From assembly GCF_009192765.1 (NCBI RefSeq), contig NZ_VOHQ01000013.1:62001-126000 (forward strand): a stretch of 64,000 nt of DNA, in the 5' to 3' direction. How positions within the stretch are numbered: position 1 is the first letter of the stretch; every line of letters starts with the position of its first letter. The position numbers and the translations under genes were made by a program. Shown in pieces: positions 55,610 through 64,000 of this stretch. The notes beneath the pieces were generated by a model that made no database searches, was not told where the DNA came from, and saw only the letters and a list, made by a program, of their open reading frames with translations. This DNA is from Agriterribacter humi. Lineage in GTDB: Bacteria > Bacteroidota > Bacteroidia > Chitinophagales > Chitinophagaceae.

Positions 55610-56986
55610 TTATGCAAATGCTTCCTGTTTATTCATCATTTCGGAGAGCTTTTGCAGTTGCTTTGTAAAGCTTTCCATCATCCACTCATCGTGTTTAACC
55701 AATGCGGCAGCGGCAGCAGCCTGTTCGTATTCCATCATTTCACCCAATCCAAAATGTGCTTCAGCTTTGTTTACCGCGATCCAGAATTTTTGTTCACTGA
55801 TTATGCCTTCCTGTTCTTCGGTAACAGGAGTTATTGTTTCATCAGCATGACTTTCCATATTGCTTATCTTTTCTATGTCTTTTTTACATAATTCCAGTAC
55901 TTCTCGTCGTATGCGATTGGCCCAGACCTGGTCAGCAATTTTATCTTCCTTTTTAGGATCAAGCATTGTAGTAGTACGGAGTTGCAACAGGTAAGCCAGG
56001 TTAATGCCGTTATGCCTGTTGTGCAACAGGTAGTATCCTCTTTGATAAAGAAGGATGGCACTATTGAGGTGTTCGTCTCCCTGCCCCTCCTCGAAAAGAT
56101 GCTTTTCGATTGAACCTGCAAGTGCCACGGTTTCGGGATCGTTGGTTCGGCCCAGATCTATTTTTTCAAGGAGTTCAATGGCATTGTTCAATGCTGCAAT
56201 ATAGTCTGGCTGTTTTGCCTGGTAAGTGGCGAGTGCCAGCCTTTGAATAAGATACGTGTTATTGGAAACAGGTGGCGATTCCCTGCCATCATGCACCATA
56301 TGCAAGGCCGTTTCAAAAAGCGTTTTTGCGGCATCAAACTGTTTCTTTTGCAAAGCTTCTTCCCCCTGCTTTATTATAAAGGAAAGGGAATGATCTTCTC
56401 CGGTACTTCCGCTTTCGGCAGCATCGCTTTTTTCTGTTAATGCATCGCCAATCTGGCGCACTACCCTGTTGGCCTTTGCTTTTAAAGAAGGAGGAATAAG
56501 ACCTTCAATAAAAGTATATACCGGGCTGTCTGGCAATTGAGTGTTTATAACGGTGTCAATGGTATCGCCCAGTAATTTTTGAAAGCGCAACACTTCAAAA
56601 TAATCTATGCTGTCGCCGAGATGCGTATACCTGTTAATAACAATATGATTTACATCAAAAGGATAACCCAATAATTCTTCCGACATGATGATGGTGGTGC
56701 TTGGCTTTAAAGCATGCCGGATACCCAGTTCATAAAAGGCGTTTACGTTGGCCGTAGAAAGATCGGCTATCACAATATCTGCGGAAAGCAATTGCTGGTA
56801 CATCTGCAGATCAATGGAACCCGAATGGCGGATCTCATCTGCACGTATGCAGGCAATATTTTTACTTTCCACAACTGGTTTTATAAGCGCCTGGTATGAT
56901 TTGTCGAGATTTAGCTTACGTCCCGTAGCCAAATCGGTTTTTATACCGAAACCCATTACCACGAAACATTTTTTTGCATTGGCCAT
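55610..56986 (-). CDS. NDT/TIR-like domain plus TPR (TRAFs-binding-like) protein 1
   Basis: A 458-residue protein. Residues 1-150 form a Rossmann-like domain of the nucleoside-deoxyribosyltransferase/TIR-like group: FVVMGFG (8-14), R48-A-D-E51, VIADLSTAN (72-80) and FYELG with E86, where NDT enzymes keep their catalytic Glu. The rest is a helical repeat region of TPR type (about 200-430), resembling the TRAFs-binding (DUF4071) region of eukaryotic ASK kinases. It is similar to 61730-63139 and might hydrolyse or sense nucleotides. It stands apart from the patatin operon, 3' of an outer-membrane protein gene. Confidence 0.78.
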   Translation of the reverse strand: MANAKKCFVVMGFGIKTDLATGRKLNLDKSYQALIKPVVESKNIACIRADEIRHSGSIDLQMYQQLLSADIVIADLSTANVNAFYELGIRHALKPSTTIIMSEELLGYPFDVNHIVINRYTHLGDSIDYFEVLRFQKLLGDTIDTVINTQLPDSPVYTFIEGLIPPSLKAKANRVVRQIGDALTEKSDAAESGSTGEDHSLSFIIKQGEEALQKKQFDAAKTLFETALHMVHDGRESPPVSNNTYLIQRLALATYQAKQPDYIAALNNAIELLEKIDLGRTNDPETVALAGSIEKHLFEEGQGDEHLNSAILLYQRGYYLLHNRHNGINLAYLLQLRTTTMLDPKKEDKIADQVWANRIRREVLELCKKDIEKISNMESHADETITPVTEEQEGIISEQKFWIAVNKAEAHFGLGEMMEYEQAAAAAALVKHDEWMMESFTKQLQKLSEMMNKQEAFA

Positions 56987-57096
56987 ATAAATGAAATTTT
57001 ATTGAAACGATTACTTATTAAAACCAGTTATTGCAACGATGTTACCTTTGCGGGCATAAATTGAAAGTGCTTTTACATTTACAAAGTTCGGCCCTG

Positions 57097-58635
57097 TTAA
57101 AAATCAAAAATAAATCCGCCATATAATCCGCCATTTAAAATGCCTGATTTTCCCTTTCTTTTTTCATTTACCATAAGGTCATTGTCATTGATATAAGCTA
57201 TCCTGAAATGTTTGATCCTGAAAGCGGCGGAAAAGCTCAATTGTTTTACAGCCAGCCCGGCAGAAAGCAATGCATTGTTAAAAGGCACATAATTTACTCC
57301 AATGGCCGCATCGTAAAAACCATCTTCCGTAAAGATCGCATCTGCCCCAAAATTGAAGCGTTGCCATTTGTAGCATGCACCCAATCCTACTGCTCTTTGG
57401 TTTTGCATATTGTAATTCTTATTTCCGCCGGCAGCAAATGCATCGGCATATAGTGTTGTGCCTGCAAGATTCATGGCATTGATACCCAACTGTAATGCAT
57501 TGCTTACTTTATAACTTACTGAAAAATCAAGATCCCATTTCTGTTTTTTGACGGTACTGTCGGTAAATATGTTGGCAGTTGATCCATTATCGTCTATGGT
57601 TATTTTAAGCAGATTGGGGATCCTGAGATCCTGCCATATAGATTTTACGGTTAATCCAACGCTTAATTTTTCATTTATCTTAACCGAAGGGGCAAGGAAA
57701 GCCGAATACTCCTTTAACTTTACCAGGAATGAATCTATTTGTACAGTGTTGGCTTCGTTTGAAATTTTTACGTATAATGTGTTCCTGTATTCATCCTGTT
57801 GTGTATAAATAAAGCCTGCTCCTATAGAAATCCTGTCATTCAGCCTGAAATAGCCACCCAGCTTCGCGTTGTTTTTTACGTTGGTAAGCAGGCTGATATT
57901 ATAAGGGGTTCTGCTTTTAACGATTGCCGAGGGATTCCAGAAAACGGTTTCCGACATATCCCGGGCCGGCGAAAAATTAAAGCCGGTATTGGCTGTTTGG
58001 GTTAATGCGGATGAAAAGAGAAATTGGCCATATTTAATTTTGCCCGGGCCCAGTTCCCTGGCCTCGAAAATTCCGGCATTGGATACGATGCCTATTATTG
58101 GCGTTAAGTTGGTTAGGAGGTTCAAAAGCGCCGGTGTTCCCACCAGGGCGGTGGCATTTGTTATTTGCCCGATACTTTGTTCGGGCTGTTGTACTATTGC
58201 GCTAAGTATACTGTCTGCCCTGAATGACGGCAGTTCTATGTCGTTGCAGTTGGCATTAAACTTCCAGTCTTTTACAGTAACATAAGATTTTGTTTTGTCG
58301 TTGTTTTTCCTGTCCTGGTCTTCGGAAATGAATACCCGTTTTACTGATTCACTGCACTGACTGCATCCCGAAACGATGTACAGGCTCACCTGCTTATCCT
58401 GGAGTTTTGCAAATGGCACACCGGTATTGCATTCAAAATATCCCGGGGGAGTAGAGCCGGTAGTGGTAGATTTTGAGGGAATAAATGCGGGTACCACAAT
58501 AATGTTTTCTGCTCCCCTGGTGGAGTTGGGGCTTTCATTCTGGCATCTTACCCTGCCTTTAATAACAAGGTTCTGACCTGAAGCAGTGCTATATAAGAAC
58601 AGCAGCAAGGCAGAGCATATAATAAAGTTTTTCAT
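57097..58635 (-). CDS. outer-membrane beta-barrel protein with N-terminal secreted domain
   Basis: A 512-residue exported protein: signal peptide (MKNFIICSALLLFLYSTASG, cut at about 20), an N-terminal domain of about 120 residues with cysteine pairs (CSQC at about 91-94, and CN in a following strand), then a long series of amphipathic strands typical of an outer-membrane barrel (for example about 260-500), ending GGFIFDF with terminal Phe. The barrel part recalls the PorP/SprF-like or TraF-like barrels of Bacteroidota, but the family cannot be fixed. It sits between members of the signalling cluster; a link is not proven. Confidence 0.72.
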   Translation of the reverse strand: MKNFIICSALLLFLYSTASGQNLVIKGRVRCQNESPNSTRGAENIIVVPAFIPSKSTTTGSTPPGYFECNTGVPFAKLQDKQVSLYIVSGCSQCSESVKRVFISEDQDRKNNDKTKSYVTVKDWKFNANCNDIELPSFRADSILSAIVQQPEQSIGQITNATALVGTPALLNLLTNLTPIIGIVSNAGIFEARELGPGKIKYGQFLFSSALTQTANTGFNFSPARDMSETVFWNPSAIVKSRTPYNISLLTNVKNNAKLGGYFRLNDRISIGAGFIYTQQDEYRNTLYVKISNEANTVQIDSFLVKLKEYSAFLAPSVKINEKLSVGLTVKSIWQDLRIPNLLKITIDDNGSTANIFTDSTVKKQKWDLDFSVSYKVSNALQLGINAMNLAGTTLYADAFAAGGNKNYNMQNQRAVGLGACYKWQRFNFGADAIFTEDGFYDAAIGVNYVPFNNALLSAGLAVKQLSFSAAFRIKHFRIAYINDNDLMVNEKRKGKSGILNGGLYGGFIFDF

Positions 58636-58831
58636 TAATCATGGGTTTAAAAGAATGAATAAGAATTAATATTTATCCATCATCTGCAATACATAAAACC
58701 TGAAAATACATTTGCTGTTACCCGGCACGATGTTTTGCATATAAATACCAGCAGTCTGTGCGGTGTGCTTCATGCATAATGTATTGTACTGATTATATAA
58801 AAAAGGGTCGGTTTAAACGGTGTTTAGCGTT

Positions 58832-59638
58832 TTAGCGGGTAACCGGGTTTAAAACAAAATCTACTTTCATTTCCCGGTCATTGATTTTTACGGCAATTGT
58901 TTTATCCTCAAAATCTTTGTTCGAAGTAGTGAGTGTAACTTCATCGCCTACGGTGTAATTTTCCAGCGTTAGATTATAGGTTCCATTGGTAATGGTGGTA
59001 GCAAAGAAACGGGTACCATCTGCATTTACTTCCGCTCCTTTAACAGGTATTTCAGCGGCGGTTTTAACCTGCCCGGTAATATGGATAACCTGAGTACCCG
59101 GTTGACCGGAAAAGAAAAAAAATCCAGGAACCGCCAATACAGCGCCTAAGATTGCAATAGTTAGTAGGATATACTTTTTCTTTTGTAAAGCCTTCGCTTT
59201 TAAAGTGCTTTGAGTATCCTGCGTAGCTGCAGCATTTGTTATGGCATGGCCATTTATAATGGCGGTAACCGCGCTGAATAGTATTTCCAGTTCAGGGTGA
59301 TCCGTTTCTCCCTTCCATGTGTTGAGCTGAGCGGCTTCAATACGCCTGAAGGCAAGCGGAATTTTTACATCTTCCAATAAAACGGGGGCCAGGATATTCC
59401 TTTGGGCGGCATCACTGGCTTCATTTTTTACCCATTCAGAATTTACCGAACGTTGGGTCCAGATTACAATTACACACCTGGCTTTGTTTAATTCCTGCTC
59501 TATAACAGTGTCGAACCTTTGCCCCACGGGTATTTGCCTGTCCCACCAAACCGACCAGCCTTTGTGTTCCAGTGCTTCGGCAATGCCTTTTACCCTGGTC
59601 TTGTCCTCACTGGAATAACTTATAAATATGTCAGCCAT
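58832..59638 (-). CDS. TIR-domain protein with one membrane helix and carboxypeptidase-regulatory-like tail
   Basis: A 268-residue protein. TIR domain at 1-135 (ADIFISYSSEDK start, WWDRQIPVGQ loop); E73 in the SEWVKNE motif is at the position of the catalytic Glu of NAD-cleaving TIRs. A membrane helix lies at about 155-177 after a KKK patch. The tail (about 185-268) has ITGQVKTAAEIPVKGAEVNADG and TNGTYNLTLEN, as in the CarboxypepD_reg fold. The TIR would face the cytoplasm and the tail the outside. It may cleave NAD+ or make a cyclic nucleotide signal. Confidence 0.85.
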   Translation of the reverse strand: MADIFISYSSEDKTRVKGIAEALEHKGWSVWWDRQIPVGQRFDTVIEQELNKARCVIVIWTQRSVNSEWVKNEASDAAQRNILAPVLLEDVKIPLAFRRIEAAQLNTWKGETDHPELEILFSAVTAIINGHAITNAAATQDTQSTLKAKALQKKKYILLTIAILGAVLAVPGFFFFSGQPGTQVIHITGQVKTAAEIPVKGAEVNADGTRFFATTITNGTYNLTLENYTVGDEVTLTTSNKDFEDKTIAVKINDREMKVDFVLNPVTR

Positions 59639-59863
59639 ATTGCTTACAATTTATAATTGAAATAATTTCATAAGGTGGAAATAACCGAACACGCAAGCTG
59701 TTGACCCCGGCGTTAACTCCTGTGCATTCTGAGATAATAATGAAAAGTGTCGTAAAATTTTATTATTCTGTCAATTTTAATCCCTGGTCTATACGCATGC
59801 TGTTAAGTTACAACAATAAATGCTTAACTCCTATGCCACTGGTTTCATCAGGTTCATAATTTA

Positions 59864-61033
59864 TTATAAAAACTGATCCGCACTGCTTTTTAGTTTTTGT
59901 AAATCAGCTTCAGTGCAATCTATATAACTATAGATGGCAAACATAGGCGGCATATCCTCGTCTTTAATAAAATTGATCGTTTTAATGATGCTTTTCTTTG
60001 TTCGCAGTTCCATTACTTTGGCGCATTGAAACTCATCCCAGCATACATCCGATTTACTATATTCGGGTGTTAAAATGCAGAGTACCGATTTTGAGTTTTG
60101 TATGGCTTCTGAAATTTTCCTGATCCATAATCCGCCTGCCGGTATGCTGCTCCTGTCGTAAAAAATATTAAGCGCATCTTTCTTTTCCTGTATGGCTTTT
60201 ACGAATTCCTGTACCGCTTCAGTTTGCTTATGCGAATAGCTGATGAACAGATCATAGGTTGGAGTGGGTGCGCTATGGGGTTGCAATACTACCGGCGGTG
60301 CTGCGCTGGTTGATTCATTATTGCGTTCCGCATTTCCGGGAGCATAAACCGTTTCGGGTTCAGCAACTGCAGGGTAAGCCACTGCAGGTGGCCGCCGGGG
60401 AAAGTCGCTTATATTTTTTATTTCCTCCTCTGTTTTTTTTACCAGCAGTTGTTTTACCTGTTCAAAAATGGGTAATGCTGCATCTGCCTGCTCCTGCCGG
60501 TATAAAACCAATTTAATGCATTTGAGCGGCAGCCCGTTCTGCAGCCAGAAAATAGCATTTTCGAGCAAAGGGGGCAGCATCTTTTGTATAGGAACTTTTT
60601 GGTATCCTGTTGCCAGTACCGGCATGGCTATTTCATCATTTTCTTCATCAAAGGCGAAAGTATTAATACACCTGAAAATATTTCCTACAATGGTTTGGGG
60701 TTCGCTTGAATGGTACTGCGGTTCAAAGCAAAGGATTTTTTTAAAATTGAATTTATTTTTTTGTTCGGTGGGAAGCGGAGCCGACAGCCAGCATCCCAAC
60801 TGGGCCACTAAGTCTATTTGTTTATTTGCAGCCAGTGCCTGAACAGAAAGTCCTTTATTTTGGAGTGCAAGGAACAATGATCCCTTTAAAGCCATATAAT
60901 CATTGGGAAATGCGGAAACCACCAGTATATCAACGGCATGTTCTTTGGGTATAGCCGAAAGATCGCCCAACAGCAATTGAATAACTGCCTCTTTTTTGCC
61001 TGTTGGTATTGTTATTTGTGAGAGAAGTTGCAT
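59864..61033 (-). CDS. macro-like plus TIR fusion protein
   Basis: A 389-residue protein. The first 200 residues look like a macro domain, which binds ADP-ribose: LLLGDLSAI then DILVVSAFPND at the start, and EIAMPVLATGYQKVP at about 150-165, matching the GDI...VNAAN and PALGTG words of the fold. After a Pro/Ala linker, the TIR domain (about 258-389) opens YDLFISYSHKQTEAV; E334 in SDVCWDEF occupies the catalytic site. It is the last gene of the patatin operon, 6 bp after the previous gene. The TIR call is firm; the macro call is moderate. Confidence 0.82.
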   Translation of the reverse strand: MQLLSQITIPTGKKEAVIQLLLGDLSAIPKEHAVDILVVSAFPNDYMALKGSLFLALQNKGLSVQALAANKQIDLVAQLGCWLSAPLPTEQKNKFNFKKILCFEPQYHSSEPQTIVGNIFRCINTFAFDEENDEIAMPVLATGYQKVPIQKMLPPLLENAIFWLQNGLPLKCIKLVLYRQEQADAALPIFEQVKQLLVKKTEEEIKNISDFPRRPPAVAYPAVAEPETVYAPGNAERNNESTSAAPPVVLQPHSAPTPTYDLFISYSHKQTEAVQEFVKAIQEKKDALNIFYDRSSIPAGGLWIRKISEAIQNSKSVLCILTPEYSKSDVCWDEFQCAKVMELRTKKSIIKTINFIKDEDMPPMFAIYSYIDCTEADLQKLKSSADQFL

Positions 61034-61039
61034 ACGTAG

Positions 61040-61720
61040 TTATTTGCGGCAATATTTTAAAGTAACATCCACACGATAAAGCTCTTTCCATTGTATTAAA
61101 CTTTCAGCGAAGCGTTCAACCGACTCCGGAATATTATTTCTGTCGTACGCATAATAGTGCGCCCCCTGTATGTCCGCCGGGAGGTTTTGCTCAATATTCT
61201 TTTCATACAACAAAAAAACATCTCTCCCTATTGCATCGGCAATGCCTAACTCATAAAACACATTGGCATTGGGTACTGAAATATCGGCTATTACCAATCC
61301 TGTGCGTTGTATTTGTTTTACAATATTTTCAGATAATTTGCCAACCCGTGGAATCATATCTCCACGAACACATTCCATTTTAGATTTTATAACAGCAGGC
61401 TGAATGAAATCGTAAAATACAGTATCCGACCATTCCTCCGAAAAAGGCATAACAATAAAACAGGAAGGAACATCAACATAGATTTCTTTCATATCGCCGG
61501 CGCCCATTGCTATCATAAATTTGTTGAGCATGCGGCGAACCATAGGATTGAGACTGTAAACGCCGGTACCATCCATCTCAACTATTCCATCATCTTTCAG
61601 ATACTGAATGGTATCGGGATAACAATCAATACCCATTTCTATCAATTCTGTTTCTTTAAGTGCTCCACGCATGCTTGTGTTGAGCAAATGGAGCATTTTC
61701 CATTGATCGCGGTAAGCCAT
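61040..61720 (-). CDS. winged-helix plus NDT/TIR-like protein
   Basis: A 226-residue protein. The N-terminal 75 residues look like a winged helix (LKETELIEMGIDCYP; a YLKDDGIVEMDGTGVYSL wing). From about residue 85 is the same NDT/TIR-like domain as in its neighbours: CFIVMPFSEEW (87-97), VIADISVPNANVFYELG with D146 and E157. The RADE motif is RGDM here (119-122). It could be the DNA-binding or protein-binding arm of the system. It lies 9 bp after the NDT-TPR gene. Confidence 0.8.
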   Translation of the reverse strand: MAYRDQWKMLHLLNTSMRGALKETELIEMGIDCYPDTIQYLKDDGIVEMDGTGVYSLNPMVRRMLNKFMIAMGAGDMKEIYVDVPSCFIVMPFSEEWSDTVFYDFIQPAVIKSKMECVRGDMIPRVGKLSENIVKQIQRTGLVIADISVPNANVFYELGIADAIGRDVFLLYEKNIEQNLPADIQGAHYYAYDRNNIPESVERFAESLIQWKELYRVDVTLKYCRK

Positions 61721-61729
61721 AAGTACTGT

Positions 61730-63139
61730 TTAAATAAGTCTTTCAATACAGGTCATCAGCCACGCCAGTTTTTCTTTGCTTTGAAGAAGTGTGGCTTTGG
61801 TATATATTTTTTTGAGGTTCCCGGCTGTTGTTTCTTTTTCCCATTTGGCCGGGTTGCAGGTTAACGCAGTGGCAAGAAATTGTTTGGATTTTGCTTCATT
61901 CAACTCCAGCGCAGCCAGTTCAAGCGCTGTTGCCTGCACCCAATAGTTATTTTTATTGGTATCTAATTGTCTTTCTACCGAATAAGTTACCAATGGAAAA
62001 TATCTTTTAAACCTGGGATCGTCTGCATTTTCAAAAAACAATAAGGTAAGTGCATTCACTCCCGGATAAAAATCCCTGGGGTCAGCATCAAAACCTTTTA
62101 AATAAGCTTCAATGGATTTACCCCTGTATGCCGCTGCCAGCAGCTCATCACCGGCGTTATCATCCATGAGCCCTTTATATACAGCTCCCAATAACCCATT
62201 GGTTTCCGGGTCGGGTCCGTATTTATTAATGATATCGTTGAGTATCTGCTCCGCCTCCTCTCTTTGCTTTGTTTTATTTAGCGCCAGCGCCAGTTGCTGG
62301 TGAAGATAGATATCGCCTTTTCTTTCCCTTTTCACCAATGGTTGTATCATTCTTGCCACTTCATTGAAAGCATTGGTGGCTTTATAGGCGCTCATTAACG
62401 CATATACCAGGTCGTAGTTGTATTTTAACCCTTTCCCTGCCTCGTTTTCTATTGCTTTTAATTGTTCTGCCAGCTTAATTTTCTCTTTTTCGCCGGAAGC
62501 CTTCTCTTCATTGGAAGTGCCGTCTCTTTTCTCCTTTATATCCCATTGTTTCCATTGCTTTACCAGCGTTTGAATTTTTTGCTTGGTATTATTCGTTTCT
62601 TTTATGATTTCTTTGAAAGAGTCCGCCTTTGCCTGCAGTGTATTTAATTCAGGAAAAATATAAGCGGGAATCATCTCGCTGATGGGACTGTCTGCCTGCG
62701 CCTGTTGCGCATCAAGATTTATACGTATAATATCAGAGAGGTCTTTGATCTTTTGTGCACAATCCAGCACTTCTCCTGCTTCAAAGTTATAGGGCAAAGC
62801 CCTCAGGGGCGCTACGTCAAACGGCAGTTTGGTATTGGCTTCAAATATGCTGACCGTAGTGAATGGTTTTACTGCATGGCGTATACCCAATTCGTAAAAC
62901 ACATTGGCATTGGCAAAACTCAGATCGGCAACAGCAAATTCGCAATAGAGCAACCGCTCATACATGGGTTTGTGAATGAGTCCGCCGCCTTTTTCCTCAT
63001 CGGCCCGGATAGGCGACAGTCCTGCCAGCTCAATCGCTTTTTTAATAAATGAATCGTATACTTTATTGAAATCAATTTCTTTCTTGTTGCCATCTGTTTT
63101 TACGCCAAATGGCATCAGAACGAAACAAAGACTTGCCAT
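61730..63139 (-). CDS. NDT/TIR-like domain plus TPR (TRAFs-binding-like) protein 2
   Basis: A 469-residue protein of the same build as 55610-56986: CFVLMPFGVKTDG (5-17), R45-A-D-E48, VADLSFANANVFYELG with D72 and E83, then a coiled, lysine-rich linker (about 170-235) and a TPR-like helical region (about 240-469, with EAEQILNDIINKYGPDPETN). The two copies may be paralogues that assemble with different partners. It lies only 3 bp after the patatin gene. Confidence 0.8.
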   Translation of the reverse strand: MASLCFVLMPFGVKTDGNKKEIDFNKVYDSFIKKAIELAGLSPIRADEEKGGGLIHKPMYERLLYCEFAVADLSFANANVFYELGIRHAVKPFTTVSIFEANTKLPFDVAPLRALPYNFEAGEVLDCAQKIKDLSDIIRINLDAQQAQADSPISEMIPAYIFPELNTLQAKADSFKEIIKETNNTKQKIQTLVKQWKQWDIKEKRDGTSNEEKASGEKEKIKLAEQLKAIENEAGKGLKYNYDLVYALMSAYKATNAFNEVARMIQPLVKRERKGDIYLHQQLALALNKTKQREEAEQILNDIINKYGPDPETNGLLGAVYKGLMDDNAGDELLAAAYRGKSIEAYLKGFDADPRDFYPGVNALTLLFFENADDPRFKRYFPLVTYSVERQLDTNKNNYWVQATALELAALELNEAKSKQFLATALTCNPAKWEKETTAGNLKKIYTKATLLQSKEKLAWLMTCIERLI

Positions 63140-63142
63140 TTA

Positions 63143-64000
63143 CTATAGTTTAAAGGTATCAGCAAAATGATTTTCTTTCACCTCAGCGGAAGCAGCTTTT
63201 ACGCCGATATCATACAATTCGAACCTGCTGGCTGCATTGCTCATTTCTGTTAATCCATCAATTTCACTTTGGGTATAATCTTTTTTCATTAGGGGCTTTA
63301 ACGTTTCAGCATCAAGCCAGAGATTATAGCGCAGGTACGACATCAGACCGCCATCTTTCTTGGATCCGCTGATGCAGTCATTTTCGAGTTTTCCTATTTC
63401 TCCGTCAATTGGCCATGCTGTGGGCGAATTGCTCAGCCATTGCATGATAATCTGGTTGTGCCAGCTCGCATCCTGCATAAACATATCGGGTAACTGCTTT
63501 GCCCAGTTTAAGAGATTGTTTTTTTTAACGTTAGCCGGAATTTGTTTCCATCTGCTCATTCCAGTACCTACAGAAACAATGAGCAAGTTGTTCGCTCCGC
63601 ATTTCCATTTAAAGGGGAATCCCTGTAAAGTGGCTACCATCAATAGCTGCAAGGCCGGGTTATTGGCCATGCTAACACCACCGTCTACAAAAGCAGCTTC
63701 ATGCAAGCCTCCGCCCACATCAATAATCTGGGGAAGGAAATAAGTGGGTGCTGCCGCACTTGCCCTTACCGCTTTCCACAGCAATATATCTTTGTTCAGC
63801 CCGTCTGCACTGTTAAAGTATTTTCCGCCGGGATGGTTGATTAATGGCCATACACTGTTGGTATCCGCACGTTTTGCAATAATGCATAGGCCTGTCTTTA
63901 TTTTATCACTTTCCAGCTTAATATCTCCAAATAGTTTTTGCAGCTCATCTTCTAAGGGCCTGGCTTTATAGGTTGCTTTCAGCAGGTCGTCTATTTCAAA
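63143..64000 (-). CDS. patatin-like phospholipase (3' part; cut by the window edge)
   Basis: The reading frame stays open from the stop codon (63143-63145) to the window edge, giving at least 285 C-terminal residues; the start and the GxSxG nucleophile are outside. Visible patatin blocks: KRADTNSVWPLINHPGGKYF, LWKAVRASAAAPTYFLPQ, and the catalytic-Asp motif FVDGGVSMANNPAL, followed by LLIVSVGTG. The ending (about 150 residues) is typical of bacterial patatins that hydrolyse membrane phospholipids. In conflict systems such enzymes destroy the membrane of an infected cell. Confidence 0.9.
   Translation of the reverse strand, partial: FEIDDLLKATYKARPLEDELQKLFGDIKLESDKIKTGLCIIAKRADTNSVWPLINHPGGKYFNSADGLNKDILLWKAVRASAAAPTYFLPQIIDVGGGLHEAAFVDGGVSMANNPALQLLMVATLQGFPFKWKCGANNLLIVSVGTGMSRWKQIPANVKKNNLLNWAKQLPDMFMQDASWHNQIIMQWLSNSPTAWPIDGEIGKLENDCISGSKKDGGLMSYLRYNLWLDAETLKPLMKKDYTQSEIDGLTEMSNAASRFELYDIGVKAASAEVKENHFADTFKL

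Follow-up and report, generated by a model that had tools for sequence, protein, structure and literature searches.

A putative TPR-S conflict cassette with an envelope TIR module in Agriterribacter humi

Gene content of the cassette

Seven genes lie at one end of a 64,000-nt window of the 5.7-Mb genome of Agriterribacter humi (contig NZ_VOHQ01000013.1); the window is the whole stretch of DNA analyzed, and positions are given in its coordinates. All seven are minus-strand open frames, transcribed in the order patatin, NDT-TPR-S a, wHTH(?)-NDT, macro-TIR, TIR-transmembrane (TM)-TTR, outer-membrane protein (OMP) and NDT-TPR-S b (Table 1), and together they very probably constitute a TPR-S conflict cassette. 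An earlier note on this DNA had listed six of the genes, which proved to be real frames on that strand with the spacing of 3, 9 and 6 bp it gave for the first four, an operon-tight arrangement; the OMP gene between TIR-TM and the second NDT-TPR gene had escaped it. When the sequence beyond position 64000 was examined, the patatin frame was found to start at window-equivalent position 64306 (L002:9143-10306).

Table 1. Genes of the cassette in order of transcription, in window coordinates.
Product	Position	Strand	Length (amino acids)	Features
Patatin-like phospholipase	63143..64306, crosses window edge (window part 63143..64000)	-	387	Predicted membrane-damaging effector
NDT-TPR-S protein a	61730..63139	-	469	NDT/DRHyd-like N-terminal part bearing the conserved glutamate of YELG; TPR-S at the C-terminus
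wHTH(?)-NDT protein	61040..61720	-	226	Winged helix by eye; C-terminal NDT/TIR-like part
Macro-TIR fusion	59864..61033	-	389	Macro ~1-205, low-confidence linker, TIR 259-389
TIR-TM-TTR protein	58832..59638	-	268	TIR, TM-like stretch 157-175, C-terminal CarboxypepD-reg/TTR-like domain
Outer-membrane barrel-like protein (OMP), PorV/FadL-related	57097..58635	-	512	Signal-peptide-like N-terminus by eye
NDT-TPR-S protein b	55610..56986	-	458	Separable module

The two TPR proteins both passed the curated Pfam cut-off for TPR-S (27.6 bits), scoring 76.6 bits (a) and 65.6 bits (b). NDT-TPR-S a also matched MAP3K_TRAF_bd with 90.3 bits, and its 18-row profile matched human ASK1 structures (8qgy, 3.7e-16; 5ulm, 1.3e-15); homology of its TPR-S part to the ASK1 regulatory region was confirmed at the level of profile comparison. 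The catalytic-type motifs were intact. In the patatin, the nucleophile elbow GTSTG begins at residue 61 and a DGG lies at 208, and its window-internal part scored 47.3 bits against Pfam Patatin.

The macro domain was at first doubted because the N-terminal part of the macro-TIR protein gave no Pfam hit, and was later accepted because the predicted structure had a macro fold; the TIR fold was likewise supported. The glutamate of SDVCWDEF in this protein (E334) was invariant in 18 of 18 rows, as was E73 of TIR-TM in 5 of 5, and we take both, by their position, to be the catalytic-type glutamate of TIR NADases. The 18-row macro-TIR alignment (A5) was obtained from the 21-row A4 by removing the truncated L093, the masked L104, and L105, whose frame is lost beyond the macro part; L106, where no window homolog was called, was never part of it. 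No TM-like stretch was seen in macro-TIR. The TIR-TM-TTR protein matched TIR_2 with 88.4 bits and CarboxypepD_reg with 27.3 bits, the latter below cut-off.

The domains named in the earlier note were thus recovered for the most part, TPR-S, patatin and TIR in two proteins by Pfam and macro by predicted structure, while the Pfam signal for NDT was weak, with an E-value of 0.02 for the wHTH protein and no NDT match listed for the two TPR proteins. A motif, D-[IL]-S-x-x-N-x-N-x-x-Y-E-L-G, was common to wHTH-NDT and both NDT-TPR-S proteins. The C-terminal part of the wHTH-NDT protein was homologous to the NDT parts of its neighbors, and its Pfam matches to CAP12-PCTIR_TIR and Nuc_deoxyrib_tr were both below cut-off. 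Its wHTH label reflects a reading of the sequence by eye.

Distribution of the cassette and its modules

A DNA search with window positions 58832-63784, which exclude OMP and NDT-TPR-S b, matched 7 of the 12 genomes of the genus, its own included. Patatin, NDT-TPR-S a, macro-TIR, TIR-TM and OMP were found in the same order in five of these 12 (G000, G651, G648, G644 and G645; L087-L090 duplicate the contigs of L080-L083, so each was counted once). The earlier note had made its proposal depend on co-occurrence outside this genome; a lack of such co-occurrence was refuted, the core being present in 4 of the 11 other genomes; core order kept in four of them is more than chance. The wHTH-NDT gene was present in 3 of the 5 cassettes and was not found in L082 and L083.

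The cassette occupied two sites, with the patatin-side flank shared by three genomes and a location elsewhere in two (G644, G645). Flanks on both sides matched the window in G651; in G648 the patatin-side flank matched, the far side joined genes slightly further along the window, and the boundary differed (L081). Nine more regions opened at patatin-side flank genes, two of them short contig ends, had no cassette; two of the nine, from G649 (L127) and G650 (L126), nevertheless retained genes of both flanks. A second, partial patatin stood at a contig start in G644 (L086:1-901), its upstream neighbor being as in the G645 cassette; it may belong to another cassette, be a tandem copy of patatin or reflect a break in the assembly. 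The window's genome also encoded a third TPR-S protein of 576 amino acids (L057:9067-10797), with no patatin or TIR homologs beside it.

At the level of the phylum, TPR-S scored over cut-off in 54 of 392 genomes. Thirty TPR-S regions from 27 genomes were opened, mostly the best-scoring ones, one of them being a second locus of the window's genome. In six regions, a patatin homolog (E < 1e-50) lay no more than 3 kb from the TPR-S gene; the six are not fully independent, since they fall into three family groups, one being divergent (L045) and one having a TIR gene in between (L046). TIR homologous to that of the window was found within 3 kb in two of the 30, and in L040 and L049 NDT-TPR-S was followed directly by a ThsB-type TIR. 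An alpha/beta-hydrolase-TPR-S gene with NDT-TPR-S formed a recurrent two-gene pair. On plasmids, NDT-TPR-S genes lay near TIR genes in Agrobacterium and Vibrio, a patatin gene stood directly upstream of NDT-TPR-S on a conjugative Rhizobium leguminosarum plasmid (L149), and no TIR or patatin was named around the NDT-TPR-S gene of an Aliarcobacter plasmid. Genetic coupling of TPR-S to an effector or NAD+-processing gene was thus seen in several lineages. Phage records gave matches to NDT-TPR-S a, none of them across >80% of its length.

Two other arrangements were noted among the TPR-S regions. The alpha/beta-hydrolase-TPR-S fusion stood directly upstream of NDT-TPR-S in L037:7452-8858 and L043:8607-10004 (L038 and L039 are similar and were not scanned). 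In L041:7857-9467, TPR-S was fused to a trypsin-like protease adjoining an NDT-TPR-S gene, and this pair represents a protease-based variant of such systems.

Macro-TIR at 1e-20 was found in its own genome only among 248 genomes, the macro part alone matched in 2 of 395 (own counted), and macro-TIR was not found in the viral contigs or plasmids searched. A scan of the genome collection gave 20 macro-TIR loci in Bacteroidota, Chloroflexota, Cyanobacteria, Planctomycetota and Proteobacteria, of which four were genus cassettes and one was a Flavihumibacter locus (L092) where patatin and macro-TIR were 10 bp apart; the other 15 are considered below. Among the macro and macro-TIR loci, L068:1598-2674 encoded a macro homolog of 37% identity whose C-terminal part differs and whose frame overlaps a gene judged McrC-like by eye, and L100 had a different patatin (47.3 bits, unmatched by the window patatin) three genes from macro-TIR. 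Two macro-TIR genes stood in tandem in Candidatus Uabimicrobium amorphum (L094:9001-11421), and a DUF4062-NACHT-WD40 protein was encoded upstream of macro-TIR in L096:3658-8718. One recent paper reports DUF4062 as a TIR-like NADase in defense (PMC13174449).

The envelope pair

The OMP gene directly followed the TM-TTR gene in all eight loci found, six of which had the TIR fusion, and this suggests a candidate trans-envelope TIR receptor. Spacing between the two genes was 99 to 225 bp in the five cassettes and 11 bp in both L110 and L111, with a 4-bp overlap in L145. That OMP is a chance neighbor was tested from both the OMP and the TTR side and rejected, the pair being present in each matching region opened. 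The OMP search matched 3 of 198 genomes of the order and 2 of 345 of the class, and the TTR-domain search 4 of 348 of the order, the window's genome being counted and the sets overlapping; only close relatives of the pair could turn up, because strict E-values were used with profiles built from members of such pairs.

Hydropathy profiles showed one TM-like stretch in the window protein, L087 and L110, three in L088 and L145, and three regions in L111; L089 and L090 had two clear stretches and a weaker third inferred by eye. An odd number of TM stretches would place the TTR domain in the periplasm. For OMP, PorV_fam matched 3 and Toluene_X/FadL 5 of 7 aligned members. The window protein stayed below both cut-offs (34.1 bits against 90 for PorV_fam, 19.4 against 29.7 for FadL), and these matches and the signal-like N-terminus suggest a barrel-like protein of the outer membrane. 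Its AlphaFold model was of low confidence, with a predicted local distance difference test score (pLDDT) of 36.6, a PDB search with the OMP profile gave 0.24 and 0.35 as best E-values, and no Pfam family matched the L145 member at 0.001.

Tentatively, the envelope pair could serve as a sensor. Two papers describe anti-phage TIR proteins that sense phage capsid or portal proteins (PMC12578639, PMC13174449). With a TIR domain that travels with an outer-membrane protein, envelope-level phage sensing would become directly testable, and the envelope module is the part of the cassette most worth testing first. More speculatively, the pair may be a bacterial counterpart of the animal Toll-like receptors: TIR-TM-TTR and the OMP barrel would trigger immunity at the envelope, on phage adsorption or DNA entry, instead of within the cell, and relay it via NAD+ products to the ASK1-like sensor and the phospholipase. 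The analogy lies in an extracytoplasmic domain, a TM stretch and a cytoplasmic TIR; the homology seen is confined to the TIR, and a periplasmic TTR-like domain with OMP stands instead of leucine-rich repeats. Literature searches that named the outer membrane and covered mainly open-access sources turned up no title about such a pairing of TIR with an outer-membrane protein, a negative that is weak evidence.

Predicted function and competing explanations

TPR-S is predicted to recognize NAD+-derived signals, and TPR-S proteins were reportedly predicted by Burroughs and Aravind in 2020 to be sensors in prokaryotic conflict systems linked to ASK. The cassette shares with such systems, and with the ASK signalosome, NDT and TPR-S beside variable effectors (patatin, alpha/beta-hydrolase, trypsin or TIR), to which it adds macro-TIR, wHTH-NDT and the trans-envelope pair of TIR-TM-TTR and OMP. 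It is best read as belonging to the TPR-S/NAD+-messenger kind, with an added envelope module. The earlier note had proposed an undescribed conflict system; the multi-gene TIR/macro/NDT/TPR/patatin cassette stands, and its TPR parts are the known ASK1-like TPR-S sensor, so that its general kind is a published prediction. A further paper traces ASK signalosome parts to bacterial conflict systems (PMC8195603).

Overall, we consider the locus probably a patchily distributed multi-gene conflict cassette of this kind, predicted to act by abortive infection. When a phage attacks, NAD+ would be converted to an ADP-ribose-type product by at least one of the two TIR proteins, perhaps with a contribution from the NDT domains. 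This product may be bound by the macro domain and TPR-S, which may set a threshold, and the activated NDT-TPR-S would switch on the patatin phospholipase, which would damage the membrane and kill the cell before phage release. TIR-TM-TTR and OMP would provide a trans-envelope input, relaying a surface change across the periplasm to TIR. Control of patatin by NDT-TPR-S is somewhat more likely than not, and the case for an NAD+-derived signal is evenly balanced. With homologs of two animal signaling parts (TIR and the ASK1 regulatory region) joined to an effector, the cassette offers a bench system for the TPR-S/NAD+ prediction.

A number of observations weigh against a single coupled cassette of this kind. 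The messenger, like the direction of signaling and the anti-phage role, is read from domain anatomy and precedent. Co-transcription is unproved, because the last three genes are not operon-tight (225, 196 and 110 bp) and the only match to a consensus Bacteroidota promoter pattern fell outside the cassette, at chance level with 1.5 expected. The island is not marked by foreign base composition (GC content 41.7 against 42.2%). The whole set was found only in the window's genus. NDT-TPR-S a of L082 and L083 was 39-41% identical to that of the window, against 77% for patatin and 59% for macro-TIR, and may therefore have been swapped. Of the 30 TPR-S regions, 24 showed no patatin in a script-based scan, which, working by similarity to the window's proteins, picked up the TPR-S gene in no more than 21 of them, and TPR-S stood beside patatin in one of five patatin plasmid regions, the other four having no named TPR-S directly adjoining. 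The remaining 15 of the 20 macro-TIR loci, two from Chitinophagaceae among them, showed no other window-protein homolog apart from the second macro-TIR in L094, and the link of macro-TIR to patatin is thus lineage-specific; several of these 15 were short contigs, and L106 gave no match at all. Two TM-TTR and OMP pairs (L111:8302-10652 and L145:7841-10248) lacked TIR; the pair may therefore serve a purpose other than immunity, and TIR may have joined an envelope pair that predates it. Finally, NDT-TPR-S b is a separable module. The earlier note had counted both NDT-TPR proteins as parts of one system, and both do occur in 4 of the 5 cassettes; b was not found in G651, which keeps the other six genes, and was found in G642 and G647. 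In these two genomes the DNA search saw patatin and no macro-TIR or TIR-TM, the patatin gene being convergent with another TPR-S-type gene elsewhere (L085 in G642; L084 in G647, confirmed by a further scan). Altogether b was present in 6 of the 12 genus genomes, all among the seven with patatin (hypergeometric 0.008, with patatin sought by DNA only and relatedness ignored).

Such separability would also be expected if two or three independent defense systems (patatin/NDT-TPR-S/macro-TIR, TIR-TM with OMP, and single-gene NDT-TPR-S b) were stacked, uncoupled, at a variable site, an explanation we regard as possible but rather unlikely. Sub-modules did recur on their own, namely TIR-TM-TTR with OMP and without the remaining cassette in L110, a b ortholog without the other cassette genes at the patatin-side flank site of G642 (L132), and patatin with macro-TIR in L092, and the gaps between the blocks are the 110-225 bp noted above. 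Against this, the blocks stood together in the same order at the second site in L082 and L083, which loose stacking does not readily give, although an island formed by stacking could likewise be transferred whole. It is improbable that the genes form a stress or cell-death system instead of an anti-phage one, in which an ASK1-like envelope-stress sensor kills damaged cells, for example in bacterial competition. The homology of TPR-S to the regulatory region of ASK1, a stress kinase, and the occurrence of the OMP/TM-TTR pair without TIR speak for this reading, but patchy presence with cassette-free relatives, plasmid TPR-S genes near TIR and a CBASS-like lipase are more usual for anti-phage modules.

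As the earlier note had supposed, the cassette matched no named system exactly: none of the seven proteins reached the cut-off of an NCBIfam named-system model, and PADLOC matches were partial. In PADLOC, both TIRs scored best against the candidate system PDC-S66 (49.7 and 38.5 bits), a likeness limited to the TIR region, with the macro, TM and TTR parts unmatched. CapV is the name of the patatin effector of the cyclic oligonucleotide-based antiphage signaling system (CBASS), and the cassette patatin was most like NCBIfam CBASS_lipase (138.6 bits, under the cut-off of 200). Membership in CBASS was rejected, as the defining CD-NTase gene was lacking: no CD-NTase family was matched by the seven cassette proteins or eight scanned flanking genes. 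A Thoeris-type system, in which a TIR-made messenger is sensed by the macro domain as in TM-macro ThsA, is very improbable. TIR and macro do co-occur, and the NCBIfam model ThcB4 of Thoeris type III weakly matched the TIR parts (34.9 and 16.5 bits against a cut-off of 220). Membership was rejected, since no ThsA model (SIR2-SLOG or TM-macro), the defining gene beside TIR, was matched by the seven proteins in the PADLOC and NCBIfam scans, PADLOC ThsB matches covered the TIR parts only, macro is fused to TIR in a protein without a TM-like stretch, and patatin is the likely effector. In TM-macro Thoeris, as one paper reports, the ThsA macro domain binds ADP-ribose and EcThsB2 has an NDT-like active-site tyrosine (PMC11204291).

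The cassette is flanked on one side by genes for glycosyltransferases, a protein that matched no Pfam family, and glutamine synthetase, and on the other by Band 7, GAPDH, cupin-like and transketolase genes; the gene beyond the patatin start is a divergent glycosyltransferase. One flanking glycosyltransferase (L002:11674-12828) barely passed Pfam GT4-conflict (26.2 bits, cut-off 26), and ordinary glycosyltransferase models scored far higher on it.

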